Of a stretch of DNA of 64,000 bases, positions 44,659 to 58,309 are shown one piece after another; the first letter of the stretch is position 1, and the number at the start of each line of letters is the position of its first letter. Under the pieces are notes generated by a model. It made no database searches and had not been told where the DNA came from. It saw only the letters and a program-made list of their open reading frames with translations. The position numbers were made by a program, and so were the translations under genes. The stretch is from positions 310,001-374,000 of the forward strand of contig NZ_CP028158.1 in the NCBI RefSeq assembly GCF_003030345.1, in the 5' to 3' direction. The DNA is from Plantactinospora sp. BC1 (lineage in GTDB: Bacteria > Actinomycetota > Actinomycetes > Mycobacteriales > Micromonosporaceae).

Positions 44659-45624
44659 ATGGACGGAGAGCCGAAATTGCCCGAAATCAGCGCACCCACC
44701 ACGGATCCGGTCGACACCCCCTTCACCTCCACGGGACCGGCCCGGTGCCGCCCCGGAGCGTGTCGTGGCGGCGGGTTCGACCCGGCACCGGCGCCTCACC
44801 CGGACGCGGCGGCACAGCGGATCGGAGAGCTCCTCGGTGACCTCGACGCGGGCGCCCACGTCGTCGAGGTCACCGCCGAGGCCGGCATCGGAAAGTCCAG
44901 GCTGCTCGCCGAGATCGCCCGCCTGGCCGGGGCCCGGGAGATCCGCGTCTTCTCCGGTGCCGCACCGCCGGACGGTGCGCTCTTCCCGTTCGGCGCCTTC
45001 GTCGACGCCGCCACCCGCCGTACCGGCGACGTCGACCTCGGGCCCGCTCCGCCGCCCGGAGTCCCGCCGGAGCACCGGCCGGTGCTGCGGGAGCTTCTCC
45101 CGCCGGGCGCCGGCCCGAGCGGCAGCCGCACACGGCCGGGCCGGCCGCTCCAGGCGTACGCGCGGATCGACGCCGTGTACGCCCTGCTGGAGCCGTACCT
45201 GTCGGCCGGCGGTCCCCTGGTGGTGGTGCTCGACGTCCCGCCCGCACACCCGCCGGAGCCGCTCGGACCCGACGACCTCGCCGACCCGGCCGACCAGACC
45301 GCACCGGAACCGGGTGCCGACGAGGTCGCGCCGGAACCGGGTGCCGACGAGGCCGCGCCGGAGCGGGGTGGCGCACCCGTGGTCGCGCGTCCATGGCGCG
45401 GCCGGCGGCGGACCGGCCGGCCGGCGTCGGCCGCGCTGACCAACCGGGAGCGGCAGGTCGCCGAGCTGGCCGGTGACGGGCTCACCAATCGCGAGATCGC
45501 GGCGGCGCTCTTCGTCACCGAGAAGACGGTCGAGATGCACCTCACGCACGTCTTCGCCAAGCTCGACGTCCGCAACCGGGTCGGACTGGCCCGGCGGCTG
45601 CACGCGGCCGGCCGGAGCGAGTGA
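44659..45624 (+). CDS. Shortened LAL-type LuxR regulator
   Basis: 321 residues. A P-loop typical of LAL regulators (TAEAGIGKSRLLAEIARLAG, about 71-90) is followed by only about 90 residues of ATPase domain up to PLVVVLDVPPAHPPE, where Walker B normally reads LDDxHWAD. A Pro/Glu/Asp-rich segment containing two copies of APEPGADEVAPEPGADE-like sequence links directly to a complete LuxR helix-turn-helix (ALTNRERQVAELAGDGLTNR onward, about 254-316). LAL proteins are usually 850-1000 residues, so the ATPase is internally deleted and probably inactive while DNA binding is intact. It abuts the biosynthetic operon and may regulate it. Confidence 0.75.
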   Translation: MDGEPKLPEISAPTTDPVDTPFTSTGPARCRPGACRGGGFDPAPAPHPDAAAQRIGELLGDLDAGAHVVEVTAEAGIGKSRLLAEIARLAGAREIRVFSGAAPPDGALFPFGAFVDAATRRTGDVDLGPAPPPGVPPEHRPVLRELLPPGAGPSGSRTRPGRPLQAYARIDAVYALLEPYLSAGGPLVVVLDVPPAHPPEPLGPDDLADPADQTAPEPGADEVAPEPGADEAAPERGGAPVVARPWRGRRRTGRPASAALTNRERQVAELAGDGLTNREIAAALFVTEKTVEMHLTHVFAKLDVRNRVGLARRLHAAGRSE

Positions 45625-45685: not shown

Positions 45686-46054
45686 TCACCAGCCCATCGC
45701 GACCGCGGCGACGAGGCCGCGCTTGTGGGTGATGGAGACCGTCACCTGGGCCACCCCGACCCGCTCGGCGGCGACGGTCGCCGCCCGGCGCAAATCGACC
45801 TGCGGTGCGCCGCCGGGCCGGGAGAGTACGGCGACGTCGCACGGTGCCACCCCCTCGAACAGTCCCGTGCCGAGTACCTTCAACACGGCCTCCTTGGCGG
45901 CGAACCGACCCGCCAGGAACTCCCGCCGTCGCTGCCCCGACAGCCGGTCGGCGTGCGCCAGCTCGGCGTCGGCGAAGGCGTACCGGACGAACCAGGCCCG
46001 CCCGGCCAGCCGGTCCAGCTCGTCCACGGACATCAGGTCAATGCCGAGCCGCAT
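45686..46054 (-). CDS. acpS: Holo-ACP synthase (4'-phosphopantetheinyl transferase)
   Basis: 122 residues. GIDLMSVDELDRL at the N-terminus (Mg-binding Asp) and FLAGRFAAKEAVLKVLGTGL (Glu/Lys of the active site) are the two AcpS signatures. It is the last gene of the eight-gene operon, overlapping the acyl-CoA dehydrogenase by 17 bp. A dedicated AcpS would convert the cluster's own ACP (48697) to its holo form. Whether it is also the housekeeping enzyme cannot be told here. Confidence 0.85.
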   Translation of the reverse strand: MRLGIDLMSVDELDRLAGRAWFVRYAFADAELAHADRLSGQRRREFLAGRFAAKEAVLKVLGTGLFEGVAPCDVAVLSRPGGAPQVDLRRAATVAAERVGVAQVTVSITHKRGLVAAVAMGW

Positions 46055-47237
46055 GGGGGGTCTCGTCAGGCTCGGTCGCGGCCAGGAAGTTGCCCTTCAG
46101 CACTCCCCGGAAGACGGACATCCGATGCAGGTTCGTGGTCCCTTCCATGATCTCGAAGGCCCGGACGTCACGGTAGATCTTCTCCAGCCAGGGATGTTCC
46201 ACCAACGCCGCCGGCCCGAGCAGCCTGGTGGCGAGCAGCGTCGCCTCCTCGGCCAGCCGGGCGGCCTGTGCCTTGGCCGCGCCCAGCCGGTGACTGTTCA
46301 CCGCGCCACGGTCGACGTCGGCGGCACCCTGCTGGATGAGCCGGCGCACCGCGGCGATCCGGTCCAGTACGTCGTCGAGGTGCAGCCGGTCGAAGCCGGT
46401 GAGGGCGGGGCGCTGCGCCTGGACGTAGTCGCAGACGGCCTGGGCACAGCCCAGCGCCATCGCCGCGATGGTGGGCCGGGCCCGGTACAGCACCTGGGTC
46501 GCGCCGTACAGGCCACGGCGGGTCCGGCGCAGGTGCGCCCCGAGCAGGTTCTCCGCCGGCACCCGGACGCCGTCGAACCGGATCCGGCTGATCCGGGCGC
46601 CGCGCAGGCCGACGGTGGAGAGCAGCTCTCCGCTGAATCCGGGGGTGTCGGTGTCGACCAGTACGGCCTCGATGCCGAGCGGTCCGGGTGCCCGCCGGCA
46701 GAACACCACGCCGAACTCGGCGCGGGCGCCGTTGCCGATGTAGCACTTCTCGCCGTCGAGGATCCAGCCGTCGCCGTCGGGCGCCGGGGTGAGCGTGGTG
46801 GTCAGCTCGGTGGCGGCGGAGCCCTTGGCCGGCTCGGTGAGCCCGAAGAAGGTGTGCTGCGGCTGCGCGACGAGCCGGTGGTAGTACCGGTCGGCCTGTT
46901 CAGCGGTGGCGAGCACGTCGACGACGCCGCCGGAGAGCGCCGGGCCGGGGCTGGCCAGCCAGACGTTCGGGTCACCGTAGGCGAGCCGTTCCCAGGCGAC
47001 GCTCTGTCCCAGTACCGTCCGGAGCAGGCCCACCAGGTTGGCCGGCGCCTCCGGGCCGGGCCAGTACCGGGGTGGGATGGCGCAGAACCGGGAGAGGCGC
47101 ACCCCGGGCCGGTCCAGGTGTTCCGCGATGACGTCCGGATCGTGGTCGAGCAACCGGCCCAGCTCGCGGAAGTCCGCGGAGACCTCAGCGCAGAATCCGT
47201 CCAGCTCGCGGAGGGAGTCGTCGAGCAGCTCAGGCAT
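46038..47237 (-). CDS. Acyl-CoA dehydrogenase family enzyme
   Basis: 399 residues from ATG 47237 (GGAGG upstream). N-terminal helical domain, central beta-domain (QHTFFGLTEPAKGSAATEL, GWILDGEKCYIGNG) and a C-terminal four-helix bundle ending in IMEGTTNLHRMSVFRG, where Glu of MEGT is the expected catalytic base. It is a complete FAD-dependent dehydrogenase. In an ACP-centred cluster the likely substrate is an acyl- or aminoacyl-ACP rather than CoA; this follows carrier-protein dehydrogenases in pyrrole and methoxymalonyl pathways and is inference here. Overlaps its neighbours by 8 and 17 bp. Confidence 0.82.
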   Translation of the reverse strand: MPELLDDSLRELDGFCAEVSADFRELGRLLDHDPDVIAEHLDRPGVRLSRFCAIPPRYWPGPEAPANLVGLLRTVLGQSVAWERLAYGDPNVWLASPGPALSGGVVDVLATAEQADRYYHRLVAQPQHTFFGLTEPAKGSAATELTTTLTPAPDGDGWILDGEKCYIGNGARAEFGVVFCRRAPGPLGIEAVLVDTDTPGFSGELLSTVGLRGARISRIRFDGVRVPAENLLGAHLRRTRRGLYGATQVLYRARPTIAAMALGCAQAVCDYVQAQRPALTGFDRLHLDDVLDRIAAVRRLIQQGAADVDRGAVNSHRLGAAKAQAARLAEEATLLATRLLGPAALVEHPWLEKIYRDVRAFEIMEGTTNLHRMSVFRGVLKGNFLAATEPDETPHAARH

Positions 47238-47853
47238 GGTGGTCCTCCGTCGACCGGCCCGGCCGCGGTGCTCCGGGATGCAGGTAGAGATTGCCGGTGA
47301 CCTCCGCGAGGTAGAGCTCGCCGGCCGGGCCGTCGAGCAGGAACCCGGCGGCGCCGAAGAGGTACAGGATCGTGCGACCGATCCGGACCAGCCGCTGGTG
47401 CGTACGCCACCGCGCGGCGCCGTCACCGCAACGCCGCTCCGGCGGCATCGCCTCGTCCTCGCGCAGCGCCATCGCGATGTCGGCGAGCTGCGCCTGGACG
47501 AGCTGCCGGGCCAGCAGCGAGGCCCCCTCCGAGCTGCGTTCGCCGAGATGCTCCAGCGCCTGGTCGAACGCGCGGCGCAGCACCGCCCGGTGCAGGTCGA
47601 GCAGTCCGGTGGCGAACCGCTCGGCGACGTCGCCCGGCACCGGCGGCCGGTCAGCACCGCCGGGCGGTGGTGTCACGGCGAGGCCGAACCGCCGCAACGG
47701 CGTCGGCTCCGCCGAGGGCAGCGCCGCCACCGAGGCGGCGACGTGCCCGGTCGGCGCCGGTACCGGCCCGTCGGGGCGGATGCTGTGGTGCAGGGCGTCC
47801 AGTGCGCGCGGGTATTCGCTGACGCCGAGCTGCTGGGTCAGGGTGATGGTCAC
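47230..47853 (-). CDS. Protein resembling the C-terminal half of an acyl-CoA dehydrogenase
   Basis: 207 residues from GTG 47853 (AGGAG upstream). After a Pro-rich N-terminus, about 80-190 reads like the ACAD helical bundle: RRAFDQALEHLGERSSEGAS, LVQAQLADIAMAL, then ILYLFGAAGFLLDGPAGELYL. No flavin-binding beta-domain is present. It sits between a KAS III-like gene and a full ACAD with 4- and 8-bp overlaps, so it may be a non-catalytic partner of that ACAD. It is too coherent to be a pseudogene. Confidence 0.55.
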   Translation of the reverse strand: MTITLTQQLGVSEYPRALDALHHSIRPDGPVPAPTGHVAASVAALPSAEPTPLRRFGLAVTPPPGGADRPPVPGDVAERFATGLLDLHRAVLRRAFDQALEHLGERSSEGASLLARQLVQAQLADIAMALREDEAMPPERRCGDGAARWRTHQRLVRIGRTILYLFGAAGFLLDGPAGELYLAEVTGNLYLHPGAPRPGRSTEDHHA

Positions 47854-48692
47854 GGCGATCTCCTGGGGGTCGGTGCGGCGGGCCGTTGCCGCAGCACGGC
47901 GGCCTGGCTCTGCCCGGTACGCGGGTCGGTGTCGCAGAGCACCACCGACCGGTACGCGTCGCTCCACTCCTCGTGGTGGCGCGCGAGTTCGAGCCAGACG
48001 CCGGTGCAGTACGGGCCGGCCGCGGCGCGGTGCACCGGCACGGCGATCTCGGCCAACTCGTCCGGGTGCGTCCACGAACCGGCGACGAGCAGGGTCGAGT
48101 CCGGCTCCAGGTCTGTCGTCACCGACCCGAGCAGGGCGCGCAGCGGCGTGCCCCGGGTCGCCATCCGGGTGCCGTGGAACTCGTACCGGCCGGTGTCGTC
48201 GAAGTAGAGCAGCGCCGCCGAGTTCGGCACCTTGTTCTCCTCGACGAACGGGTCGGGGTAGGCGTACGTGTTCTGCTCGCAGACGACCAGGGCGAGGGTG
48301 CGGCAGCGACCGGAGCCGGCGAAGGCGTCGGCCACCCGCAGGGCGGTGTACGGCGCCCGGAGTCCCTGCTCGGAGACGGCGAAGCAGTGGCTGCCGCCGC
48401 CCAGCAGATAGTTGACCCGCTGGGCGACGTGCTTCAGCGCGATCATGTCCGGCAGCCCGAACGCGAAGACCAGCAGGTCGGGGCTGGTCAGCCGGAACGG
48501 CAGCCGGCCGATAACACTCTCGGCCAGTTCGGTGAACCCGATGTTCGCGCCCTGCCGGAGCCGCTCCTCGTCGCGCTGGATGCCGAACCGGACGAGCAGG
48601 TCCCGTTCGAAGATCGCGCAGTCGGGATCCGGCCGGTACGGGATGCTGCCGGGTTCCAGCACCAGGGCGGCGGATGACAGTGACAGCGGCAT
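47850..48692 (-). CDS. KAS III-like (thiolase-fold) protein lacking the active-site Cys
   Basis: 280 residues. The pattern GANIGFTELAESVIGRLPFR, then LLVFAFGLPD, then CFAVSEQGLRAPYTALRVA, then TLALVVCEQNTY follows the N-terminal half and core of ketoacyl synthase III. The position after the LLVFAF strand that should carry nucleophilic Cys reads VSEQG, and no obvious catalytic His-Asn pair is seen. A Cys-less partner next to an active KAS III recalls PqsB/PqsC and KS-alpha/CLF pairs; the active member here is 51692-52660. Function as a heterodimer partner is inferred. Confidence 0.6.
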   Translation of the reverse strand: MPLSLSSAALVLEPGSIPYRPDPDCAIFERDLLVRFGIQRDEERLRQGANIGFTELAESVIGRLPFRLTSPDLLVFAFGLPDMIALKHVAQRVNYLLGGGSHCFAVSEQGLRAPYTALRVADAFAGSGRCRTLALVVCEQNTYAYPDPFVEENKVPNSAALLYFDDTGRYEFHGTRMATRGTPLRALLGSVTTDLEPDSTLLVAGSWTHPDELAEIAVPVHRAAAGPYCTGVWLELARHHEEWSDAYRSVVLCDTDPRTGQSQAAVLRQRPAAPTPRRSP

Positions 48693-48696
48693 GGGA

Positions 48697-48954
48697 TCAG
48701 GGCTTGTCGTCGAGGTTGCCGGCCACGTACTCGGCGAGGGTCTCCAGCGACGTGAAGTCGGACATCTCCAGGTTCTCCGGGTCGACCTCGATGCCGACGC
48801 TGTCCTCCAGGGCCATCAGCAGTTCGAGGATCGAGGTGGAGTCCAGGTGCAGGTCCTCGAAGAGCCGGGTCTCCTTCGGCATGCCGGAGACCGGGCGCTG
48901 GAGTACCTCGCTCAGCGCCCGCTCGATGTCGGCGATGATCTTACTGTTCTCCAT
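48697..48954 (-). CDS. Acyl carrier protein
   Basis: 85 residues, acidic, four-helix ACP. LFEDLHLDSTSILELLMALE holds the phosphopantetheine attachment site at Asp38-Ser39. It lies between the PLP decarboxylase (14-bp overlap) and the KAS III-like gene (4-bp gap). By analogy with BtrI of butirosin synthesis it would carry the amino acid loaded by the ATP-grasp ligase and decarboxylated on the carrier. Confidence 0.9.
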   Translation of the reverse strand: MENSKIIADIERALSEVLQRPVSGMPKETRLFEDLHLDSTSILELLMALEDSVGIEVDPENLEMSDFTSLETLAEYVAGNLDDKP

Positions 48955-50245
48955 GGCTGGTCCCTTCGGGTGAGGCGGTGGCGGTGGTGGCGGTGGTCAC
49001 CGGCACGGGCAGGCTGACCAGGCGTTGCGGCCGGAGCAGGTCCTCGACGGTGTCGCGGCTGCGGACGAGGTGTGCCACACCGTCGAGCAGGAGCACCTCG
49101 GCCGGGTGGCCGTGACTGAGGAAGAGCACCGGCGAGGCGCTGGGGCCGTACGCGCCGGAGCGCTCCACCCCGAGCAGGTCGCCGGGGCGTACCTCGGGGA
49201 GCCGGACCTGCTTGCCCACCACGTCGCCGGGGGTGCAGAGCGGCCCGGTGACCGTGTAGACGTGTTCGGCCGGCTCGTCGGGACGGCTCAGCGACCTGAT
49301 CGGGAAGTTCCGCTTGACGAAGCTGCCGACGCCGACCGCGGCCATGTGGTGGTTGGTGCCGCCGTCGGCGACCACGAACCACTCGCCCTTGGAGCGCTTG
49401 ACGTAGCGGGCCCGGGTCACGTACGTGCCGCACCAGCCGACCAGGTAGCGGCCCAGTTCGGTGACGACCCTGCTCTCCGGGTGGCGTTCCCGGAACGCGG
49501 CCACCTCGTCGTTGACGCCGTCCACCGCGGCGTCGCCGTCGAGGTCGGTCTCGTTGTCGAAGTACGGCACGCCCCAGCCGCCGCCGATGTCCACCATCTC
49601 CAGCGGGATGTCGAGCGCCTTGGCGAGCGCCTCCGCCATGGCCAGCACGCCCCGGGTGTTGTGCCGTACCGTCGCCGCGTCCAGGATGCGGGTGCCGAGG
49701 TAGGCGTGGATCCCGGCGACGCGTACCCGGCGCAGCCCGCGCAGCGCGGCCGGGCCGTCCCGGAGGATCTCCTCGTCGATGCCGAACTGGCGCGGCTTGC
49801 CGCCCATCGCCAGCCGCGAGCCGTGGGTGTCGAAGTCGGGGTTGACCCGCAGCACCACCCGCAGGCCGGCGGCCGCGTCCAGCGCGTCGAGCGCCAGCAC
49901 CTCGTCGAGCGACTCGCAGACCACCGCGTAGATGCCGCGCTCGCAACAGGCGCGCAGTTCCTCGGCGGACTTGCCGGGGCCGAGGAAGATCACGTCGGCG
50001 GGGTCGACCCCGGCCCGCTCGGCGGTGACCAGCTCGGCCAGCGAGGAGACCTCCAGACCCGCGCCGAGGGCGCCGAAGATCGCGCAGACGCTGAGGTTCG
50101 GGTTCGCCTTGGCGGAGTAGAAGATGTCCACGTCGGGACGGAGCCGGCCGCGCAGCGTCTCGTACCGGCGGCGCAGCAGGTCGCCGTCGTAGACGTACAC
50201 CGGGGTGCCGAACCTCTCGGCGATCTCGGCGTAGTGGTCGGTCAT
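48941..50245 (-). CDS. PLP-dependent fold-type III decarboxylase, BtrK-like
   Basis: 434 residues from ATG 50245 (GGAGG upstream). Lys46 (FYSAKANPN) is the Schiff-base lysine of the alanine-racemase/DAP-decarboxylase barrel. MVDIGGGWGVPY, VTELGRYLVG and the C-terminal GPLCTPGDV and GAYG motifs complete the active site. Lysine biosynthesis is unlikely because it is locked in an operon with an ATP-grasp ligase and an ACP. In butirosin synthesis BtrK decarboxylates glutamyl-S-ACP with BtrJ and BtrI, the same trio as here. The amino acid used is not known. Confidence 0.85.
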   Translation of the reverse strand: MTDHYAEIAERFGTPVYVYDGDLLRRRYETLRGRLRPDVDIFYSAKANPNLSVCAIFGALGAGLEVSSLAELVTAERAGVDPADVIFLGPGKSAEELRACCERGIYAVVCESLDEVLALDALDAAAGLRVVLRVNPDFDTHGSRLAMGGKPRQFGIDEEILRDGPAALRGLRRVRVAGIHAYLGTRILDAATVRHNTRGVLAMAEALAKALDIPLEMVDIGGGWGVPYFDNETDLDGDAAVDGVNDEVAAFRERHPESRVVTELGRYLVGWCGTYVTRARYVKRSKGEWFVVADGGTNHHMAAVGVGSFVKRNFPIRSLSRPDEPAEHVYTVTGPLCTPGDVVGKQVRLPEVRPGDLLGVERSGAYGPSASPVLFLSHGHPAEVLLLDGVAHLVRSRDTVEDLLRPQRLVSLPVPVTTATTATASPEGTSHGEQ

Positions 50246-51678
50246 CGCCGTTCCTCCGTTGCGGTGGCGGTCATGTCGGCGCGGGGTTCGGGCATCGGCG
50301 CTCCTCCGGTAGGGCGGCGCTCGTCGGGTGCGAGGCCGGCGAGGGCGGCCCGGGCGGCGTCGTCCAGTGCCGCCAGCCCCGCCTGGTCGGCGGCGACGAG
50401 CAGGGCGTACAGCCGGCCGTCGAAGGGCGGCGGACGATCGGCGTCGGCGTTGACCGTGCCGAAACAGGTGATGAGGAACCGCTCGGCGCCGGTGCGGTCG
50501 AGTACCGGCCCGAGCGTGCGGGCGAGTTCGTCGAAGGAGACGGGCGCGGCCAGCCGCAGCGGGTAGTGCCGGGCGAGCGCCACGTGCCCGTCGGGCTGGT
50601 ACCGCTCGGTCACCCCGCCCTGGTAGCTCGACATGTTCAGCCGGGCGTTGATCTCCAGTACCGGGTACAGCTCGCCGCCGGTGGCGACGACCGCGTCGAC
50701 GCCGACCACCCCGACGTACCCGTCGGCGTGCAGCCGGGTCCCGACCACCTCGGCGGCGTGCGCCAGCTCGGCCCGCTGCCGTGGGGTGAGCGCGACCGGC
50801 ATCAGGTGTCCCTTGTGTACGCCGTTCTCGGTGATCGCCCGCTTGACGAAGTCGAGGGTGACCCGGCCGTCGCCGGCCACCGTGAGCTGGTAGTTGAGGT
50901 CGTGGCTCTTCTCCAGCCACTCCTCGACGACCACGTGCAGCCGGTCGTCGCCGCTGCGCTCGGCCCGCCGGTCGACCATCCGCAGCAGCCGGTCGGCGGT
51001 CTCCGGGCGGTCCAGCAGCAGGAGCCCCTTGCCGGAGACCCCGTAGGCGTCCTTCACCACGAATCGGGTGCCGTCCGCGAGCGCCGCCCGGCGTCGGTGC
51101 AGCACCGCCGCGAGTTCGTCGCGGCTCTCGCAGCAGTCGCCGGGCACGGCCCGCAACCCGGCGGCCGAGGTCAGCCGGCGGGAGTAGATCTTGCTGTTGA
51201 CCCGGGCGAAGGTGGCCGCGTCGGGTACCGCGAGCGGCAGCCCGCACCGGTCGGCGAGCTTCTCCTCCAGCGCGGTGGTCCCCATCGGCAGCAGTCGGGC
51301 CCCGGCGGCGCCGAGCGCGTGCAGCCGGCCGAGCAGCCCGGGGGAGTCGAGGACGTCCTCGGTCGTCGACCGGTCGGCCCGGACGTTCTCCGGCACGAGT
51401 ACGGTCGGCACCGGCAGCCCCAGCCCGGTCAGGTACTCCCGGTAGCCGGGGTCGAGCGGGTGTTTGAGCACCAGTACGTCGTCCGCGCCGGCCAGCAGGA
51501 CGCCGTGTTCCTCCATCCGGGCCACCACCGAGGTCGGGGCGGCGAATCGCGGCGCGGGAAGTCCGACGTGTCCCTCGGCCCACCAGTTCTCGGCCTCGAA
51601 GTTGCAGAGCAGGACCAGTCGCCCGGTGGGCGCGCCGAGCAGGTTCGTCTTGAGCGTACGCAGATAGCTCGTGTCCAT
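50242..51678 (-). CDS. ATP-grasp ligase, BtrJ/PGM1-like (amino acid to ACP)
   Basis: 478 residues from ATG 51678 (GGAGGGTGGGCG upstream). A pre-ATP-grasp N-terminal domain (TGRLVLLCNFEAENWW) precedes the ATP-grasp core: TRFVVKDAYGVSGKGLLLL (nucleotide loop), VVVEEWLEKSHDLNYQL, and PVLEINARLNMSSYQGG (metal-binding Glu/Asn). Family members join a carboxylate to an amine or thiol with ATP. Overlapping by 4 bp with the PLP decarboxylase and close to the ACP, it is best read as the enzyme that loads an amino acid onto the ACP, as BtrJ does. Confidence 0.8.
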   Translation of the reverse strand: MDTSYLRTLKTNLLGAPTGRLVLLCNFEAENWWAEGHVGLPAPRFAAPTSVVARMEEHGVLLAGADDVLVLKHPLDPGYREYLTGLGLPVPTVLVPENVRADRSTTEDVLDSPGLLGRLHALGAAGARLLPMGTTALEEKLADRCGLPLAVPDAATFARVNSKIYSRRLTSAAGLRAVPGDCCESRDELAAVLHRRRAALADGTRFVVKDAYGVSGKGLLLLDRPETADRLLRMVDRRAERSGDDRLHVVVEEWLEKSHDLNYQLTVAGDGRVTLDFVKRAITENGVHKGHLMPVALTPRQRAELAHAAEVVGTRLHADGYVGVVGVDAVVATGGELYPVLEINARLNMSSYQGGVTERYQPDGHVALARHYPLRLAAPVSFDELARTLGPVLDRTGAERFLITCFGTVNADADRPPPFDGRLYALLVAADQAGLAALDDAARAALAGLAPDERRPTGGAPMPEPRADMTATATEERR

Positions 51679-51691
51679 CGCCCACCCTCCG

Positions 51692-52660
51692 TCAGTATTG
51701 GATGACCATGGCGGCGTACGTGGCGCCGACCCCGACCGAGGTCAGCAGGTAGTACTGCCCCGGAATCAGCAGATCGCGGTCGCGCATCGTCGCCAGGTTG
51801 ATGAACGGATCGGAACAGTACGTGTGGCTGTAACTCGCGATGTTGTCGAGAAAGACGCGGCTCCGGTCGAGGCCGACCTTCGCGCACAGCCGCAACCACA
51901 GTGTCCGGTTGACGTTGTGCGGGACCACCATCGCGATGTCGGAAATCTCCAGCCCGGCCCGGCGCAACGCCTCCTGCATCATTTCCCACAGGTGGACGTT
52001 GTAGGTGTCGTCGAATTCCTTCTGCCGCTCGACCGTCATCCGGAAGCCGTCGGCGAACTCACCGGCGGTGTGTGCGGCGTAGGAGAGGATCCGGCTGCCG
52101 GTGCCGTCGACGCCGAGCAGGCACGCCGCCGAGCCCTCCCCGGTCACCGAGACGTTGAGCATGTACCGCACCAGGCCGGTGAACGGCTTCTCGCCGGTGA
52201 CCACCAGCGCCTGCGCGGTCGGGTCGCCGTCGGCGCGGAGCAGCTCGCTGGCGACGTCCAGCGCGGCCAGGTTGCTGGCGCACATCTGGTGGGTGACGGC
52301 GAAGGCGTCCGCGTCGACCAGGCCCAGCCGCTCGCGCAGCCGGTCGGCCGCGAAGACGAACGACGGGGTGAGGTCGGGGAAGGTGTGTGCGTAGATCAGG
52401 TACCGGATGCGGCCCGGGTCGGAGACCGAGCGGAGGACCTTCTCGGCCGGGGCGGCGAGCAGGTCGAAGAGGTCCAGGTCGGGGTCGAGGTGTATCCGGT
52501 CGAGTCCGCGAATGCGCCGGAACATGCGTGCCTGATGTCGGTTCAGTCCATTCGCCTCGGCGATCTCCTCGACGGCCCAGGACCGTTCCGGGGCGAACGC
52601 CTCGACACGCAACAGGCTCGTGACGGGCTTGGCCACCGATTTCTCCAGGTGAGCGGCCAC
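51692..52660 (-). CDS. Ketoacyl synthase III family enzyme (catalytic partner)
   Basis: 322 residues using GTG 52660, which follows GGGAGG; GTG 52636 has its own GGAG and is equally possible. Nucleophile Cys127 (VTHQMCASNLAALDVA) and His248 (VVPHNVN, for the usual PHQAN) are present. The third residue, Asn in NTSAAS, is replaced in ASYSHTYCSD, so condensation chemistry may be altered or the enzyme may be an acyltransferase as in CerJ-like KAS III. First gene of the minus-strand operon, 13 bp before the ATP-grasp gene. Confidence 0.8.
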   Translation of the reverse strand: MAAHLEKSVAKPVTSLLRVEAFAPERSWAVEEIAEANGLNRHQARMFRRIRGLDRIHLDPDLDLFDLLAAPAEKVLRSVSDPGRIRYLIYAHTFPDLTPSFVFAADRLRERLGLVDADAFAVTHQMCASNLAALDVASELLRADGDPTAQALVVTGEKPFTGLVRYMLNVSVTGEGSAACLLGVDGTGSRILSYAAHTAGEFADGFRMTVERQKEFDDTYNVHLWEMMQEALRRAGLEISDIAMVVPHNVNRTLWLRLCAKVGLDRSRVFLDNIASYSHTYCSDPFINLATMRDRDLLIPGQYYLLTSVGVGATYAAMVIQY

Positions 52661-52678
52661 CGATTCCTCCCAGTGAGC
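52631..52678 (-). repeat. Duplicated translation-start region
   Basis: Two 24-bp units (52631-52654, 52655-52678) differ at 3 positions. Each encodes AH-W/L-E-E/K-SVA and each carries its own GGAG box and GTG codon. The KAS III gene therefore has two tandem potential start sites eight codons apart. Confidence 0.7.
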
Positions 52679-52696
52679 GGTACGCCGGCGCGGCAC

Positions 52697-52958
52697 TGTC
52701 GCACAACGACGGCGCGCGGCGATGCCAGATTATGTGCGGCGCCCGTTCGGCGGAACTGGGGAATCCCCCAGGATCTCGACGCTCTTCAATGTTCTCGAAA
52801 AGGCTCGGGTTTCCCCGATTGCCACGGGCCGAGCAATTCGCCTAGCGTGTTCGGCAGCCAGCGAGCCACCCATCCGCTCGACGTGTGCCGACGGACCGGC
52901 GAATCGACGCGCCGGTCGGGTGGCCGCCGCCACTTCCGGTTTCCCTGAGGAGACGGCA
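52697..52958. promoter_or_regulatory. Bidirectional promoter region of the biosynthetic cluster
   Basis: The gap between the two divergent operons is A+T-richer than its surroundings. CTGGGG-AATC-CCCCAG (52756-52771) is a perfect 6-bp inverted repeat. GAGGAGA before 52959 is the ribosome site of the condensation gene. No -10/-35 pair is convincing. Confidence 0.5.
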
Positions 52959-54779
52959 ATGGGAATAAAGCCGATAGACCTCTTTCCGCCTCCGGTCGTC
53001 GGTCCTCGGACGTCCACTGTCGAGCTGGTCCGGGTGGAGCGGCGGTACGCGAAGGTGGTCGGCGGCCGGGGCGGCGACGGGCCGCTCACCCTCGGCCACC
53101 TCGGCATGCTGAAGTGGATCAACCAGGAGAAGCCGTACGGCCGCTGGGCGGCGGCGCCGCTGGAACTGCCCCCGGGCGCAAACGTCGACGACGTGGTGGC
53201 CGCGCTCGGCGTGCTGGTGTCCCGGCACGAGGGTCTGCGGACCCTCTTTCCCGGTCGGGGCGAACAGGTGCAGCGGGTACTCGCGCACTGCGAGCTGCCG
53301 GTCGACGTGTACGAACACGGCGAGGCGGATCCACCGGCGCTGATCGAGGAACTCTTCCACCGGCTCCGCAACGCCGAGTTCGACCTCGCCGAGGAGTTGC
53401 CGCTGCGCGCCGCGGTCGCCGTACGCGACGGCGTGCTCACCGTCGCGGCCGTGGTCTACTCGCACGTCGTCGTCGACCTGATGAGCGCGGAACTGCTCGG
53501 TCGGGAGTTCACCGCACTCGCCGCCGATCCGGCCCGCCGGCACGTCGGACCGCCGACGCACCAGCCGCTGGACCAGGCGGCGTACGAGCGGTCACCGGCC
53601 GGGCGACGCCGGCTCGACACCGCCCTCGGGTACTGGGAACGTCACCTGCGGCGGCTACCGCAGTGCACCTGGGCGGCACCGCGGTCGACGGCGCCACCCG
53701 GCGGCGCCCTCTCCGGCTGGCTCTGGTCCCGGGCCGGGGCGCTGGCCCTGCCGCAGATCACCGCCCGGGTGGGTGCGAGCGAGTCGATGGCGGTGCTCAC
53801 CGCGATCTGCGCGGTGCTGGCCCGGCGCACCGGGCACCGGAGTTTCCCGCTGCCGACCCTGGCCAGCAACCGGATCGAGCGTCGGCTCCGGGAGTACATC
53901 GGACCGCTGGCCGCGGACAGTCTGGTGCCGGTCGACATCGACGCCGAGAGCTACGACGACCAGCTGCGGCGGGTGGGCGGCGCGGTGCTGCGGGCCGGGC
54001 GACAGGCGTTGGTCGACGACGTCGCGCGGGTCCGGATGATCGATCGGATCCACCACGACCGGGGCAACTGGTACGGCCGGGACACCACCTTCAACGACGC
54101 CAGCACCTTCAACGACACCGAGGCGGCAGCCGACCCGACCGAGGCGGCAGCCGACCCGACCGAGGCGGTGGCCGACCCGACCGCTGGCCGGAAAGCCAGG
54201 AAAGCGCTCGGCGAGAGCCGGATCTGGTGGCAGGACTGGCCGCCCATCTCCCCGCTGCTGGCGTTCCGGCTGATGCAGAAGCGCGGTGAACTGGTGCTCG
54301 GCATCATCGCCCACGACCGGAACCGGATCCCGGCGGAGGAGATCGACCAGCTGCTGCGCGGCGTGGAGCGGGTGCTGGTGGCGGCGGCCGAGGGGGACTT
54401 CCCGATGTCCCGGATCGGCGAGGTGAGCGGTGTCGAGCCGATGGAGCGCGGCGCCGGTTGGCGACTCGTCGACTCCTCCTGGGTCGAGCTGGCCGAGGCA
54501 CAGCGACTCCTCGACGAGTCGCTGGACGCACCGGTCCGGCGGGTCTTCGCGATCCCGGACGGCGACGGGCACCGGCTGGTGGCGTACCTGGTCGGCGGCT
54601 CGGCCCGGACCCCACGGGAGGCGCACGCCGCCTGCGTGGCCGCGATGCCGGGCCGCCGTACCGCGATGACGCCGCAGCGGTACGTGATCTGCGCCGAGCC
54701 GCCGGCCGACCCGGCCGATCCGGCGGCCTGGGCCCGGCAGCCCGTACTGGCCGACGGCGACGGCCGGATGGACCCGTGA
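52959..54779 (+). CDS. Stand-alone condensation-domain protein
   Basis: 606 residues from ATG 52959 (GAGGAGA upstream). About 35-470 follows the NRPS condensation/acyltransferase fold: LTLGHLGMLKWINQEKP, LVSRHEGLRTLF, and the active-site motif SHVVVD at 168-173, where canonical HHxxxD has lost the first His but keeps His169 and Asp173. A low-complexity insert of three TEAAADP units lies near 388-408. The C-terminus (VRRVFAIPDGDGHRLVAYLV, then TPREAHAACVAAMPGRRTAM) resembles the C-terminal subdomain of an adenylation domain. It could join the ACP-bound amine to another acyl unit. First gene of the plus-strand operon. Confidence 0.7.
   Translation: MGIKPIDLFPPPVVGPRTSTVELVRVERRYAKVVGGRGGDGPLTLGHLGMLKWINQEKPYGRWAAAPLELPPGANVDDVVAALGVLVSRHEGLRTLFPGRGEQVQRVLAHCELPVDVYEHGEADPPALIEELFHRLRNAEFDLAEELPLRAAVAVRDGVLTVAAVVYSHVVVDLMSAELLGREFTALAADPARRHVGPPTHQPLDQAAYERSPAGRRRLDTALGYWERHLRRLPQCTWAAPRSTAPPGGALSGWLWSRAGALALPQITARVGASESMAVLTAICAVLARRTGHRSFPLPTLASNRIERRLREYIGPLAADSLVPVDIDAESYDDQLRRVGGAVLRAGRQALVDDVARVRMIDRIHHDRGNWYGRDTTFNDASTFNDTEAAADPTEAAADPTEAVADPTAGRKARKALGESRIWWQDWPPISPLLAFRLMQKRGELVLGIIAHDRNRIPAEEIDQLLRGVERVLVAAAEGDFPMSRIGEVSGVEPMERGAGWRLVDSSWVELAEAQRLLDESLDAPVRRVFAIPDGDGHRLVAYLVGGSARTPREAHAACVAAMPGRRTAMTPQRYVICAEPPADPADPAAWARQPVLADGDGRMDP
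54118..54182 (+). repeat. 21-bp in-frame repeat
   Basis: Three near-identical copies of GAGGCGGCAGCCGACCCGACC encode three TEAAADP units in the condensation protein. A strand-slippage expansion in a disordered linker. Confidence 0.8.
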
Positions 54780-55663
54780 GCGGGCGGACCGGCGGAGCCG
54801 GCGTCCCGGGCGACGACGTGGCCATCGCCGTGACCGACCTGCGCAAGTCCTACCGGGGGCGGCCGGCGGTGGCCGGCATCGACCTGACGATCCCCCGGGG
54901 CGAGGTCTTCGCCCTGCTCGGCCCGAACGGCGCCGGCAAGACCACCACGGTGGAGATCCTGGAGGGGCACCGCCGGCGCGACGCCGGCCAGGTGCGGGTG
55001 CTCGGCGTCGACCCGGCGCTCGGCCGGGCGGACTGGAAGGCCCGGCTCGGCATCGTGTTGCAGCGCTCCGACGACCTGACCCAGGGCGGGGCGCTCACCG
55101 TACGGGACTGGACCCGGGCGATCGCGGCCTGCTTCCCGAACCCGCGGGACCCGGACGAGGTGATCGAGCTGGTCGGGCTGACCGACCGGCGCGACGCCCG
55201 CGCGGCGTACCTCTCCGGGGGTCAACGCCGTCGGCTCGACGTCGCGCTCGGCATCGTCGGCCGGCCGGAGCTGCTCTTCCTGGACGAGCCGACGACCGGG
55301 TTCGACCCCGAGGCACGCCGCCGGTTCTGGGACCTGATCGCCGATCTCGCCCGGTCCGGCACGACGATCCTGCTCACCACCCACTATCTGGAGGAGGCCG
55401 AGCATCTCGCCGACCGGATCGCCGTGATCGTCGACGGCCGGGTCGTGGAGATCGGCTCCCCGCAGACCCTCGGCGGCCGGGCCACCGCCCCCGCCACGGT
55501 CCGCTGGCTCACCCCCGACGGACCCCGCAGCGTCCGCACCGGTACCCCGGCGAAGCTGGTCGCCGAGCTGGCCACCGAGTACGGACCGGAGGTGCCGGGG
55601 CTGGCGGTCGAGCGGCCCAGCCTGGAGGAGACCTACCTGCGGATGATCGGAGAGCCGACGTGA
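54776..55663 (+). CDS. ABC exporter ATP-binding protein (DrrA-like)
   Basis: 295 residues from GTG 54776, which overlaps the condensation gene's stop (GTGA). LGPNGAGKTTTVEIL (Walker A), YLSGGQRRRLDVALG (signature), LLFLDEPTTGFDP (Walker B), TTHYLEEAEHL (H-loop), and the C-terminal extension typical of drug-export ATPases. It pairs with the ABC-2 permease at 55660 and probably exports the cluster's product, giving self-protection. Confidence 0.9.
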   Translation: MSGRTGGAGVPGDDVAIAVTDLRKSYRGRPAVAGIDLTIPRGEVFALLGPNGAGKTTTVEILEGHRRRDAGQVRVLGVDPALGRADWKARLGIVLQRSDDLTQGGALTVRDWTRAIAACFPNPRDPDEVIELVGLTDRRDARAAYLSGGQRRRLDVALGIVGRPELLFLDEPTTGFDPEARRRFWDLIADLARSGTTILLTTHYLEEAEHLADRIAVIVDGRVVEIGSPQTLGGRATAPATVRWLTPDGPRSVRTGTPAKLVAELATEYGPEVPGLAVERPSLEETYLRMIGEPT

Positions 55664-56484
55664 CCGCCCCCGGACTCCCCGCCCGGCTGCCGGCCGTACT
55701 GGCGGTCACCCGGGCCCGGGTACGCGTGGAGTTCCTGGTCTTCATCCGGGAACGCATCTCGGTGGTCTTCACCTTCTTCTTCCCGGTACTGCTGCTGATC
55801 GTGATCGGCGCGATCTTCCACGGCCAGCGGTTGCCGGGCGACGTCGACCTCGCGCAGTACTTCGTCGCGGGCATGATCGGGGCCGGCCTCTTCGGCGTCA
55901 GCTTCCAGAACGTCGCCATCGCGATCCCGATCGAACGGGACATCGGCACCCTCAAACGGCTCGCCGGCACCCCGATGCCGAGGTCGGCGTACTTCCTCGG
56001 CAAGATGGCGATGGTCGCGTTCGTCGCGCTGGCCCAGAACGTACTGCTGCTCGGCATCGGCTCGGCCTTCTTCGGGCTGCGACTGCCGGACACCGCCGAC
56101 CGGTGGCTGACCTATCTCTGGGTCATCGCGCTCGGCATCGCCTCGTGCACCCTGCTGGGCATCGCGGCGAGCGGGTTCGTCCGCAACGGCCGTACCGCTC
56201 CGGCGGTGATGTCACCGATCGCGATCGTGCTCCAGTTCATCTCCGGCGTCTACTTCGTCTTCGCCACCATGCCGACCTGGATGCAGACGGTGGCCGCCAT
56301 CTTCCCGCTCAAGTGGATCGCCCAGGGGATGCGGTCGGTGTTCCTGCCCGACGGCTACCAGAGCCAGGAGCCGGCCGGGAGCTGGGAACTCGACCGGGTG
56401 GCCCTGGTCCTCGCCGCCTGGTGCGTACTCGGCTTCGTGGTCGCCGTCCGCACCTTCCGCTGGCGCGGCCGGACCGACGACTGA
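55660..56484 (+). CDS. ABC-2 type exporter permease (DrrB-like)
   Basis: 274 residues, GTG start overlapping the ATPase stop. Six predicted membrane helices; an ABC-2 signature region around ERDIGTLKRLAGTPMPRSAYF and a late PLKWIAQGMRSVFLP segment. Forms the membrane half of the exporter with 54776-55663. The carbamoyltransferase follows 13 bp later. Confidence 0.9.
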   Translation: MTAPGLPARLPAVLAVTRARVRVEFLVFIRERISVVFTFFFPVLLLIVIGAIFHGQRLPGDVDLAQYFVAGMIGAGLFGVSFQNVAIAIPIERDIGTLKRLAGTPMPRSAYFLGKMAMVAFVALAQNVLLLGIGSAFFGLRLPDTADRWLTYLWVIALGIASCTLLGIAASGFVRNGRTAPAVMSPIAIVLQFISGVYFVFATMPTWMQTVAAIFPLKWIAQGMRSVFLPDGYQSQEPAGSWELDRVALVLAAWCVLGFVVAVRTFRWRGRTDD

Positions 56485-56497
56485 AGGGAGGGAACCG

Positions 56498-58309
56498 ATG
56501 GAGGCTGCACAACGTCCCCGGGTGGTTCTCGGTTACAGCGGGCTGCACGGCTCCGCCGAGCTGAAGGCGGCCGGTTTCGCCGACCTGGACGAGCGCGAGG
56601 CGCGGCTGTTCCAGGGGCTGGACTCGGCGGCGGCACTGGTGGTCGACGGTGCACTGGTCGCGGCGGTCCAGCAGGAGCGGTACTCCGGCCGCAAGTTCGA
56701 CCACGCCTTCCCGGTCGACGCCATGCGGTCCTGCCTGCGCCTGGCCGGCCTGGACTTCGCCGTGGTCGACGCGGTGGCGCACAACTTCGACCACACCAGG
56801 TTCGAGATCTTCGCCCAGGGCGAGCCGTACGCGCTGCGCCGCTACACCGAGGTGCTGGCGCCGCAGCGGCAGACCGAGCTGCTGCACCGGTTCGTGCCGG
56901 AACTCTCCGAGCACCGGGTGCGGCCGGTGCCACACCACCAGGCGCACGCGCTGACCGCGGCGATCCCGGCCGGCTTCGACGAGGCGCTGGTGGTGGTGCT
57001 GGACGGGATGGGCGAACTGCACGCGGTCAGCGTCTACGCCTGGCGGGGCGGGGCGCTGCACCGGCTGGCCACCCTCGACTACCGCAGCAGCCTGGGACTC
57101 TTCTACGCCCTGGTCACCATGTTCACCGGGTACTGGCCGAACAGCGACGAGTACAAGGTGATGGCGCTGGCCGCGCTCGGCGACCCGGAACGGTACCGGT
57201 CGGTGATGGCGGAGGCCGTCACACTCGGCCCGGACGGGCGGTTCGACGTGCCGGTGCTGCGGCACAACCGCGACCCGCGCAGCCGGGAGACCTTCGCCGG
57301 GTCCCGGGCCTGGCTCGCCGGGCGGGTCGGTCCGGAACGAGGGGCGGGCGAGGCGCTGAGCCAGGCGCACATCGACCTGGCCACCGCCGCGCAGCAGCGG
57401 TTGGAGCAGGCGATCTTCCACCTCGTCGGCCACTGGGTGCGGCGGACCGGGCTGCGCCGGGTCGCCTTCGCCGGCGGCGTGGCGCTGAACTGCGCCGCGA
57501 TCGGCAAGCTCGCGTACTCCGGTCTGGTCGACGCGATCTACGTGCAGCCGGCGGCCGGCGACGAGGGTACCGCGGTCGGTGCCGCGCTCGCGGTGGCCGC
57601 CCCGCCGACCGAGGCGGTCGACTACCCGGCGATGACCTATCTCGGCCCGGAGGTGACCGAGGACGGCCCGCCGGCCGACCAGCCGTACTGGTCGGTGCGG
57701 GTCGGGCCGGGGGTGGCCGAGCAGGTGGTGGCGCGGCTGCTCACCCGGGGCCACATCGTCGGCTGGGCCCAGGGCCGGTTGGAGTTCGGCCCCCGCGCGC
57801 TGGGCAACCGCAGCATCCTGGCCGACCCGCGCGACCGGGGGGCCCGGGAGCGGGTCAACGCGGCGGTCAAGTTCCGGGAGGAGTTCCGGCCGCTGGCCCC
57901 GGCGGTGAAGGCGGAGTCCGCGAGCCGGTACTTCGTCGTGCCGGCCGGGACCAACCTGCGGCACATGACCGTCGCGGTGGCGGTGCACCCGCACGCCCGG
58001 CCGGTCATCCCGGCCGTGGTGCACGACGACGGTACCGCCCGGGTGCAGGCGGTGTTCGCGGCGGAGAACCCCCGGTTCTGGCGCATCCTCGACGAGTTCG
58101 AACGGCTCTGCGGTGTTCCGGTACTGATGAACACCTCGCTGAACGTCAAGGGCCAGCCGACCGCGCGGGCCGGTGCCGAGGCGTTCCGCACGTTCGCCTC
58201 GTCCGGCCTGGACCTGGTGGTCATCGCCGACCGGCTGTACGCGAAGCCGTCGGCGGTCGGTGACGCCGTCGAGGCGCTCGCCGCCGTCACCGGGGCGGTC
58301 TCGGTCTGA
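56498..58309 (+). CDS. O-carbamoyltransferase, TobZ/NodU/CmcH family
   Basis: 603 residues. The N-terminal Kae1-like domain carries VQQERYSGRKFDHAFP and PHHQAHALTAA (metal-binding His), with VVLDGMGELHAVSVY. The YrdC-like C-terminal domain carries EFGPRALGNRSILADPR and LMNTSLNVKGQPT. The family makes carbamoyl-adenylate from carbamoyl phosphate and ATP and transfers the carbamoyl group to a hydroxyl (tobramycin, cephamycin, novobiocin, Nod factors). It is the last gene of the plus operon and implies that the product is carbamoylated. Confidence 0.92.
   Translation: MEAAQRPRVVLGYSGLHGSAELKAAGFADLDEREARLFQGLDSAAALVVDGALVAAVQQERYSGRKFDHAFPVDAMRSCLRLAGLDFAVVDAVAHNFDHTRFEIFAQGEPYALRRYTEVLAPQRQTELLHRFVPELSEHRVRPVPHHQAHALTAAIPAGFDEALVVVLDGMGELHAVSVYAWRGGALHRLATLDYRSSLGLFYALVTMFTGYWPNSDEYKVMALAALGDPERYRSVMAEAVTLGPDGRFDVPVLRHNRDPRSRETFAGSRAWLAGRVGPERGAGEALSQAHIDLATAAQQRLEQAIFHLVGHWVRRTGLRRVAFAGGVALNCAAIGKLAYSGLVDAIYVQPAAGDEGTAVGAALAVAAPPTEAVDYPAMTYLGPEVTEDGPPADQPYWSVRVGPGVAEQVVARLLTRGHIVGWAQGRLEFGPRALGNRSILADPRDRGARERVNAAVKFREEFRPLAPAVKAESASRYFVVPAGTNLRHMTVAVAVHPHARPVIPAVVHDDGTARVQAVFAAENPRFWRILDEFERLCGVPVLMNTSLNVKGQPTARAGAEAFRTFASSGLDLVVIADRLYAKPSAVGDAVEALAAVTGAVSV

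Follow-up and report, generated by a model that had tools for sequence, protein, structure and literature searches.

The 64,000-nucleotide window analysed here (positions 310001-374000 of the 8.33-Mb, single-contig genome of Plantactinospora sp. BC1) holds a block of twelve genes, at 45686-58309, in which seven genes form a cassette whose probable product is an N-acyl-dehydro-beta-alanyl thioester, built on the acyl carrier protein (ACP) that the cassette itself encodes. Transcribed from the minus strand, these seven encode, in order, a KAS III-like enzyme (KSA), an ATP-grasp ligase (GRASP), a pyridoxal phosphate (PLP)-dependent decarboxylase resembling BtrK (DC), the ACP, a second protein of KAS III fold (KSB), and a half-size and a full acyl-CoA dehydrogenase (ADs and ADl), and they are followed by the gene for an AcpS-type phosphopantetheinyl transferase. 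Genes were called with a codon-position script, and the twelve block proteins were scanned against Pfam and NCBIfam. All the parts named in an earlier, sequence-only reading of this DNA were found on the strands it had given, including the divergent condensation-domain protein (CDOM), ABC-2 exporter and carbamoyltransferase (CARB) on the plus strand (52959-58309), and its description of ligase, decarboxylase and ACP as overlapping genes of one operon agrees with the overlaps that we measured (4 bases for the ligase and decarboxylase genes, 14 for the decarboxylase and ACP genes). Two of its statements need adjustment: both KAS III-like proteins are there, but the second lacks the catalytic cysteine and has no match in Pfam (E up to 0.1) or NCBIfam (E up to 0.01), and was recognised by its profile and fold; both acyl-CoA-dehydrogenase-related proteins are likewise there, but one is a C-terminal half only. 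A role for the block as a defence system was also considered and rejected, as PADLOC gave no match for four proteins.

Homology, the genomic setting and relatives described in the literature lead us to propose that AcpS would arm the ACP, on which the ATP-grasp ligase would load L-aspartate through its side-chain carboxyl, and that the BtrK-like decarboxylase would then remove the alpha-carboxyl to leave beta-alanyl-ACP. KSA (Cys/His/His) and KSB (no Cys) would transfer an acyl group from another thioester to the free amine, forming an amide and not a C-C bond, and the acyl-CoA dehydrogenase with its half-size partner would desaturate the acylated residue. The condensation protein might pass the acyl-dehydro-beta-alanyl group to a hydroxyl or amine acceptor, or to another beta-alanyl-ACP, after which a hydroxyl would be carbamoylated by CARB and the product exported by a DrrAB-like pump.

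A unit derived from aspartate, namely dehydro-beta-alanine, is more likely than the glutamate-derived amine of the sequence-only reading, because similar parts make dehydro-beta-alanine in the bolagladin and AFC-BC11 pathways, because five cassettes carry an ammonia-lyase homologue in place of the dehydrogenases, and because 13 cassettes adjoin genes expected for enteromycin. For bolagladin (bolC, N, O, M, P and Q of Burkholderia gladioli), aspartate is proposed to be attached to BolC, a free ACP, and to lose its carboxyl through the action of the BtrK-like BolN; deletion of bolN abolished bolagladin, with no rescue by free beta-alanine, and deletion of bolQ, an acyl-CoA dehydrogenase gene, led to beta-alanine instead of dehydro-beta-alanine (PMC7756342), a result that together with homology supports the desaturation step suggested earlier for our block. 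The two systems share a free ACP, a BtrK-like decarboxylase, two KAS III-like proteins and an acyl-CoA dehydrogenase; bolagladin, however, relies on a VinN-type adenylating enzyme where the block has an ATP-grasp ligase, its KAS III proteins have both exchanged the active-site Cys for Ser or Thr whereas KSA keeps it, and it employs a large non-ribosomal peptide synthetase (NRPS), with no carbamoyltransferase mentioned in the text available (PMC7756342). In the AFC-BC11 pathway (afcK, P, Q, L, O and E; Burkholderia cepacia complex), AfcP decarboxylates L-Asp loaded on the carrier AfcK in vitro, and the KAS III-like AfcL (Cys/His/Asp) links the chain and lysyl-CoA by an amide bond (PMC12186527). 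One carrier protein, carrier-bound decarboxylation, a KAS III-like protein and dehydrogenases are common to that pathway and the block, but AFC-BC11 has a VinN-type enzyme that also joins beta-alanines, a fatty acyl-AMP ligase and three dehydro-beta-alanines in its product and, going by the portion of the paper available, no NRPS condensation domain, whereas the block has a condensation protein. At the family level, therefore, the block contains the BtrK-like decarboxylase with free ACP, the KAS III-like proteins and the acyl-CoA dehydrogenase of such pathways, while no AMP-binding family was found among the twelve proteins scanned, the ATP-grasp ligase standing in place of a VinN-type activator. 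The earlier statement that no described pathway is known to combine these parts needs qualifying, since described pathways combine most of them. A B. cenocepacia record matches KSA at two places (the best 29% identical), which may or may not be afc genes.

A scan of named genomes returned 239 stretches encoding a relative, and our locus counts refer to the best 80 of these, in which gene presence was decided by score thresholds and some loci are truncated by contig ends. A protein of the 3-aminobutyryl-CoA ammonia-lyase family is encoded in five of the 80 (L069, at 14384-14803, L071, L073, L077 and L078), and all five are without ADs and ADl, although loci without the ammonia-lyase gene can also be without both. 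Enzymes of this type act on a beta-amino thioester, so that their homologues in dehydrogenase-free cassettes indicate such a thioester; it is possible that these cassettes would convert beta-alanyl-ACP to acryloyl-ACP, which could provide an acrylamide warhead. As for the dehydrogenases of the block, ADs corresponds, by profile, to the C-terminal portion of short-chain acyl-CoA dehydrogenases (1.6e-5), and the NCBIfam family nearest to ADl is acryloyl-CoA reductase, at 124 bits, with a cut-off, 640, that lies far above.

In 13 of the 80 loci, genes for an AurF-like oxygenase, a SerRS-like carrier-protein ligase, a small ACP and a methyltransferase lie beside the cassette; Streptomyces achromogenes (L083) and S. 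albireticuli (L087), the latter the enteromycin producer, are among them. Enteromycin is O-methyl-nitronoacetyl-3-aminoacrylic acid, an N-acylated dehydro-beta-alanine. Papers that cite the work on the enteromycin carboxamide of Streptomyces achromogenes var. streptozoticus describe a biosynthesis in which glycine is activated on a carrier protein and in which a diiron oxygenase and an O-methyltransferase also take part, and we infer that the SerRS-like enzyme loads this glycine. The loci with these expected genes carry the same cassette as our block, complete with both dehydrogenases in 9 of 13, and form one clade of the ligase tree (support 100/99). A 100/100 split of this tree has the window, the enteromycin-type loci and the ammonia-lyase-type loci together on one side. 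They differ from the block in that the acyl group of enteromycin, the O-methyl nitronate of glycine, comes from dedicated enzymes (AurF-like N-oxygenase, SerRS-like ligase and methyltransferase), none of which occurs among the twelve block proteins, and in that none of the 13 loci has a match to the condensation protein or the carbamoyltransferase, both of which the block has.

How the amine would be made is the point on which a butirosin-like route and our proposal part. The best match of the decarboxylase in the Protein Data Bank (PDB) is BtrK (2j66, E 1.9e-89, versus 1.6e-50 for the best diaminopimelate decarboxylase), and the butirosin set of BtrI, BtrJ and BtrK likewise comprises an ACP, an ATP-grasp ligase and a PLP decarboxylase, which together favour a route in which glutamate would be loaded through its gamma-carboxyl, decarboxylated to 4-aminobutyryl-ACP and made into a 4-aminocrotonyl unit that is condensed and carbamoylated. 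The ligase carries PreATP-grasp and ATP-grasp domains by Pfam and compares with BtrJ by domain type only, the PDB entry nearest to its family profile being the peptide ligase PGM1 (1e-13). Butirosin assembly, however, leads from glutamate to 4-aminobutyrate in an aminoglycoside context and is not known to involve a KAS III pair or dehydrogenases, and no hydroxylating or gamma-glutamyl-removing butirosin genes (BtrO/V- and BtrH/G-type) were found among the twelve proteins scanned. Moreover, BolN is BtrK-like too, and yet is proposed to serve aspartate and beta-alanine (PMC7756342), and the ammonia-lyase homologues of the five cassettes suggest a beta-amino thioester; on this evidence, and that from AFC-BC11, the glutamate frame was downgraded, and we regard it as unlikely. 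The sequence-only reading fared better in placing amine formation on the ACP, which agrees both with the closeness to BtrK and with the finding that decarboxylase and ACP form one open frame in three species (L079, from the same organism as G168 and with an identical protein, L086 and L091; the short gene call of L093 also ends in an ACP domain), fusions that support decarboxylation on the ACP. In addition, 74 loci had both ligase and decarboxylase on the plus strand of the locus; the two genes overlap in 73 of these and are 2 bases apart in the other, and their pairing is thus not due to chance. If ligase and decarboxylase acted on free amino acids, with the ACP serving another step, the additional matches of the decarboxylase to diaminopimelate decarboxylases and the four loci with a ligase but no decarboxylase would find an explanation, but the fusions, the gene overlaps and a similarity to BtrK exceeding that to every diaminopimelate decarboxylase make this highly improbable, as does the bolN mutant that free beta-alanine did not rescue (PMC7756342).

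The KAS III pair raises the question of which bond is formed. Among 73 KSA family rows, the window included, Cys127 is present in 73, His248 in 71 and His279 in 73, and it is His279 that aligns with the position of the FabH Asn, which we take to be catalytic. Decarboxylating KAS III enzymes of the FabH type have a Cys-His-Asn triad, and KSA departs from it in having His at the Asn position in 73/73 rows; Asn273 was considered as its catalytic Asn and ruled out, since FabH alignments place that residue at the invariant His279. The KSB family profile also matches FabH, and Foldseek assigned the KSB model (predicted local distance difference test 94.4) to the FabH/chalcone-synthase fold with probability 1.00, at E values of about 1e-11 to 1e-10 and a template modelling score of about 0.6; in the columns of the KSA catalytic residues, KSB has Cys in 0/67 and His in 0/67 rows of an alignment of distant sequences. 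From this we infer an active/inactive pair, putatively a heterodimer, that would transfer an acyl group to an amine. Membership of both proteins in the KAS III superfamily could also speak for C-C bond formation, KSA/KSB extending the aminoacyl-ACP with malonyl units to an amino-ketide or cyclic imine that the dehydrogenases then oxidise, but this is very unlikely in view of the missing FabH Asn of KSA and the missing Cys of KSB, and the block has no recognised ketoreductase or second ACP. The L087 operon, furthermore, has no recognised condensation domain or other amide former besides KSA/KSB, which are thus left to form the amide, and AfcL forms an amide bond (PMC12186527). A variant of our own proposal would have the condensation protein join beta-alanines on the one ACP into a carbamoylated oligo-dehydro-beta-alanine, consistent with the single ACP, with the lack of any other recognised amino-acid activator in the block, with the two condensation proteins of Micromonospora loci L053-L057, and with the three dehydro-beta-alanines reported for AFC-BC11 (PMC12186527). 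We find it rather unlikely, however, as a small-molecule acyltransferase role of the SgcC5 or enacyloxin type fits the genes equally well and no length-setting factor was seen in the block.

We acknowledge several observations that weigh against the assembly of an N-acyl-dehydro-beta-alanyl thioester as proposed here. Sequence does not reveal the substrate specificity of ligase and decarboxylase, and the solved protein nearest to the decarboxylase, BtrK, acts on a glutamyl thioester; no gene for an acyl donor was recognised in the block, so that the donor would come from primary metabolism or another locus. Only two of the five ammonia-lyase homologues score above the NF052388 cut-off of 160 (162.2, 166.1, 156.2, 153.5 and 104.2 for L069, L071, L073, L077 and L078, the lowest coming from a 99-aa gene call). 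Of the enteromycin-type loci, L079, L096 and L126 have neither dehydrogenase, and L066 stops shortly after KSB. The carbamoyltransferase loci occupy three places in the 78-row ligase tree, with loci lacking the gene between them, so that this gene may be only loosely linked to the cassette. Finally, the ligase occurs without decarboxylase, KSA and KSB in Amycolatopsis loci L114, L123, L124 and L128 (10-kb flanks) and likewise in G118 (L046/L047), which means that it is used beyond the cassette, and these loci represent a different use of the same activator. Ketosynthase-like, reductase-like and (by eye) SbnB-like genes and an NRPS adjoin the ligase there.

The cassette itself is a portable unit reused across antibiotic-type clusters. 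All seven genes are present in 52 of the 80 loci, which are from actinomycetes, and 48 of the 80 keep the exact order KSA-GRASP-DC-ACP-KSB-ADs-ADl; taken singly, the ligase is found in 79 loci, the decarboxylase in 75, KSA in 72, KSB in 70, the ACP in 68, ADl in 58 and ADs in 55, compared with 34 for the AcpS-type protein, 17 for the condensation protein and 6 for the carbamoyltransferase. Its settings vary and include NRPS, polyketide synthase (PKS) and oxygenase/methyltransferase genes as well as pairs of condensation proteins. A type I PKS identified by Pfam (L064, 5-7030) and, in the Microbispora relatives L063, L067 and L084, a large protein directly adjoin the condensation gene and cassette, which suggests polyketide-enamide hybrids. 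Within the order, the ligase was found in 13 of 298 genomes (profile at 1e-20), the window's own included; one of these (G142) has a 33% match in a 4.2-kb locus with an ACP-like gene and none of the other cassette genes. Across the phylum (profile at 1e-60, with 4 candidates per genome scored in the listed rows), it was found in 1 of 396 genomes, the window's own. A second KSA-ligase-decarboxylase-ACP-KSB copy, 28-60% identical and in a different setting, lies at about 5.533-5.538 Mb of the same genome (about 5532700-5537700; 14736-19658 of L009). That setting is NRPS-like, with a 577-aa acyl-CoA dehydrogenase-like protein longer than that of the block.

With regard to the plus-strand genes, the SHxxxD motif of the condensation protein keeps its catalytic His and Asp in 23/23 family rows, the window included, and the predicted model matches NRPS condensation domains, the free-standing SgcC5 and the enacyloxin releasing domain; it also carries an extension of about 100 residues with no certain family assignment. 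CARB belongs to the O-carbamoyltransferase family by its Carbam_trans_N and Carbam_trans_C domains and its homology to solved members (NovN 1e-107, GdmN 1.5e-99, TobZ 4e-66). NovN and GdmN are O-carbamoylating, and since they are its nearest solved relatives a hydroxyl acceptor appears likelier than an amine. An N-carbamoylated beta-alanine, with the carbamoyl group as amine cap, is less favoured for the same reason, and because KSA and KSB would then sit idle. Relatives of CARB (63-84% identical) lie near the cassettes of L052, L061, L065, L070, L085 and L091, while Micromonospora loci L053-L057 have their two condensation proteins beside cassette and exporter, and no carbamoyltransferase. 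Small proteins with no NCBIfam match, two of them also with no Pfam match, are encoded in L085 (16652-18024; 147-160 aa), L086 and L094; those of L085 have the cassette on one side and the genes for AcpS and carbamoyltransferase on the other.

The block has real ends, since its twelve genes recur in the same order and orientation in two related genomes, G303 of the same genus (L135/L136) and Plantactinospora alkalitolerans (L052), with proteins 74-98% identical to those of the window, while both flanks differ. Positions 40001-62000 of the window align with G303 at 88-89% nucleotide identity across the whole block, and beyond it only through two matches in what is left of the regulator gene and a weak one at a greater distance. 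All twelve genes are under purifying selection, with dN/dS values of 0.11-0.34 against G303 and 0.13-0.42 against L052 (Nei-Gojobori method, own script). The nearest named relative at the locus is P. alkalitolerans, whose ligase is 83% identical. Among seven genomes of the genus, the carbamoyltransferase was found in three, counting the window's own. Both ends of the shortened regulator gene just outside the block match by BLAST a 989-aa protein of L052, of which about 2.2 kb in the middle are absent; the regulator is reduced in G303 too, yet has 989 aa in L052. Further out, at 41725-44052 of the window, is a gene for a 775-aa protein with repeats that by eye resemble IPT/TIG domains and an LPXTG-like C-terminal end. 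Coordinates are collected in Table 1.

Table 1. Genes of the block and the adjoining regulator, in window coordinates.
Feature	Position	Strand	Basis
KSA, KAS III-like enzyme with catalytic Cys	51692..52660	-	Pfam ACP_syn_III_C 7.9e-17
GRASP, PreATP-grasp/ATP-grasp ligase	50242..51678	-	Pfam PreAtp-grasp 8.7e-17
DC, PLP fold-III decarboxylase, BtrK-like	48941..50245	-	best PDB match BtrK 2j66, E 1.9e-89
ACP	48697..48954	-	Pfam PP-binding 5.7e-9
KSB, Cys-less KAS III-fold protein	47850..48692	-	FabH profile 9.4e-8 and predicted fold
ADs, acyl-CoA dehydrogenase C-terminal half	47230..47853	-	Pfam Acyl-CoA_dh_1 1e-6
ADl, full acyl-CoA dehydrogenase	46038..47237	-	Pfam middle and C-terminal domains
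AcpS-type phosphopantetheinyl transferase	45686..46054	-	Pfam ACPS 4.5e-14; TIGR00516 above cut-off
CDOM, free-standing condensation-domain protein with C-terminal extension	52959..54779	+	Pfam Condensation 2.5e-16
ABC ATPase, DrrA-like	54776..55663	+	Pfam ABC_tran 2.7e-24; TIGR01188 drrA 8.2e-62, below cut-off
ABC-2 permease, DrrB-like	55660..56484	+	TIGR01247 drrB 2.4e-16, below cut-off
CARB, carbamoyltransferase	56498..58309	+	Pfam Carbam_trans_N and Carbam_trans_C
Shortened regulator gene, LuxR-like by eye, just outside block	44659..45624 (approx.)	+	BLAST vs L052

Related gene sets also occur outside the Actinomycetota. A stretch of a Rahnella aquatilis megaplasmid (CP042358.1, 322054-346947; L137) encodes three homologues of KSA, two each of KSB and ADl, and homologues of DC and the ACP. 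Three further proteins there carry the annotation AMP-binding or D-alanine ligase, and the stretch has no match to the GRASP profile or to ADs; the activator thus seems to differ by lineage, being AMP-binding in these Proteobacteria and ATP-grasp in Actinomycetota. KSA matches were seen on ten further Rahnella records. On a plasmid of Rhizobium gallicum (NZ_CP017102.1; L139), a BtrK-like decarboxylase (53% identical) is accompanied by an adenylating enzyme, an ACP, a GNAT protein and a protein annotated as ectoine synthase, possibly a carrier-bound former of an ectoine-like ring.

Taken together, the block is probably a variant of the bolagladin/AFC-BC11 type of dehydro-beta-alanine assembly in which the activator is an ATP-grasp enzyme, and it is an orphan cluster with a product that is probably new. 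Its pairing with a free-standing condensation enzyme, a DrrAB-like exporter and a NovN/GdmN-like carbamoyltransferase is new, and so perhaps is the ATP-grasp activator, unless this was already noted in work on enteromycin; our literature searches found, within the library searched, no paper joining these enzyme types. We suggest, tentatively and at somewhat less than even confidence, that such clusters could make a family of carbamoylated enamides with no NRPS or PKS megasynthase, in which the condensation enzyme would deliver a dehydro-beta-alanyl or oligo-dehydro-beta-alanyl group to a hydroxylated acceptor for NovN-like carbamoylation, the cassette acting as an interchangeable enamide or acryloyl module across the Actinomycetota. 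Few known natural products carry the reactive enamide of dehydro-beta-alanine, among them AFC-BC11, an antifungal described as photosensitive (PMC12186527). How this enamide is assembled was established in Burkholderia, where the activator is of the VinN type, whereas here the same logic would operate in Actinomycetota through an ATP-grasp activator and a KAS III pair with Cys in one partner only, encoded in a nearly invariant block of seven genes. In one RefSeq-annotated example, the ligase, KSB and the half-size dehydrogenase are all annotated as 'hypothetical protein', and clusters of this kind are for this reason easily overlooked. The cassette could serve as a query with which to look for new natural products of the enamide and acrylate kinds, and a twelve-gene cluster with no megasynthase is small enough to be expressed whole.

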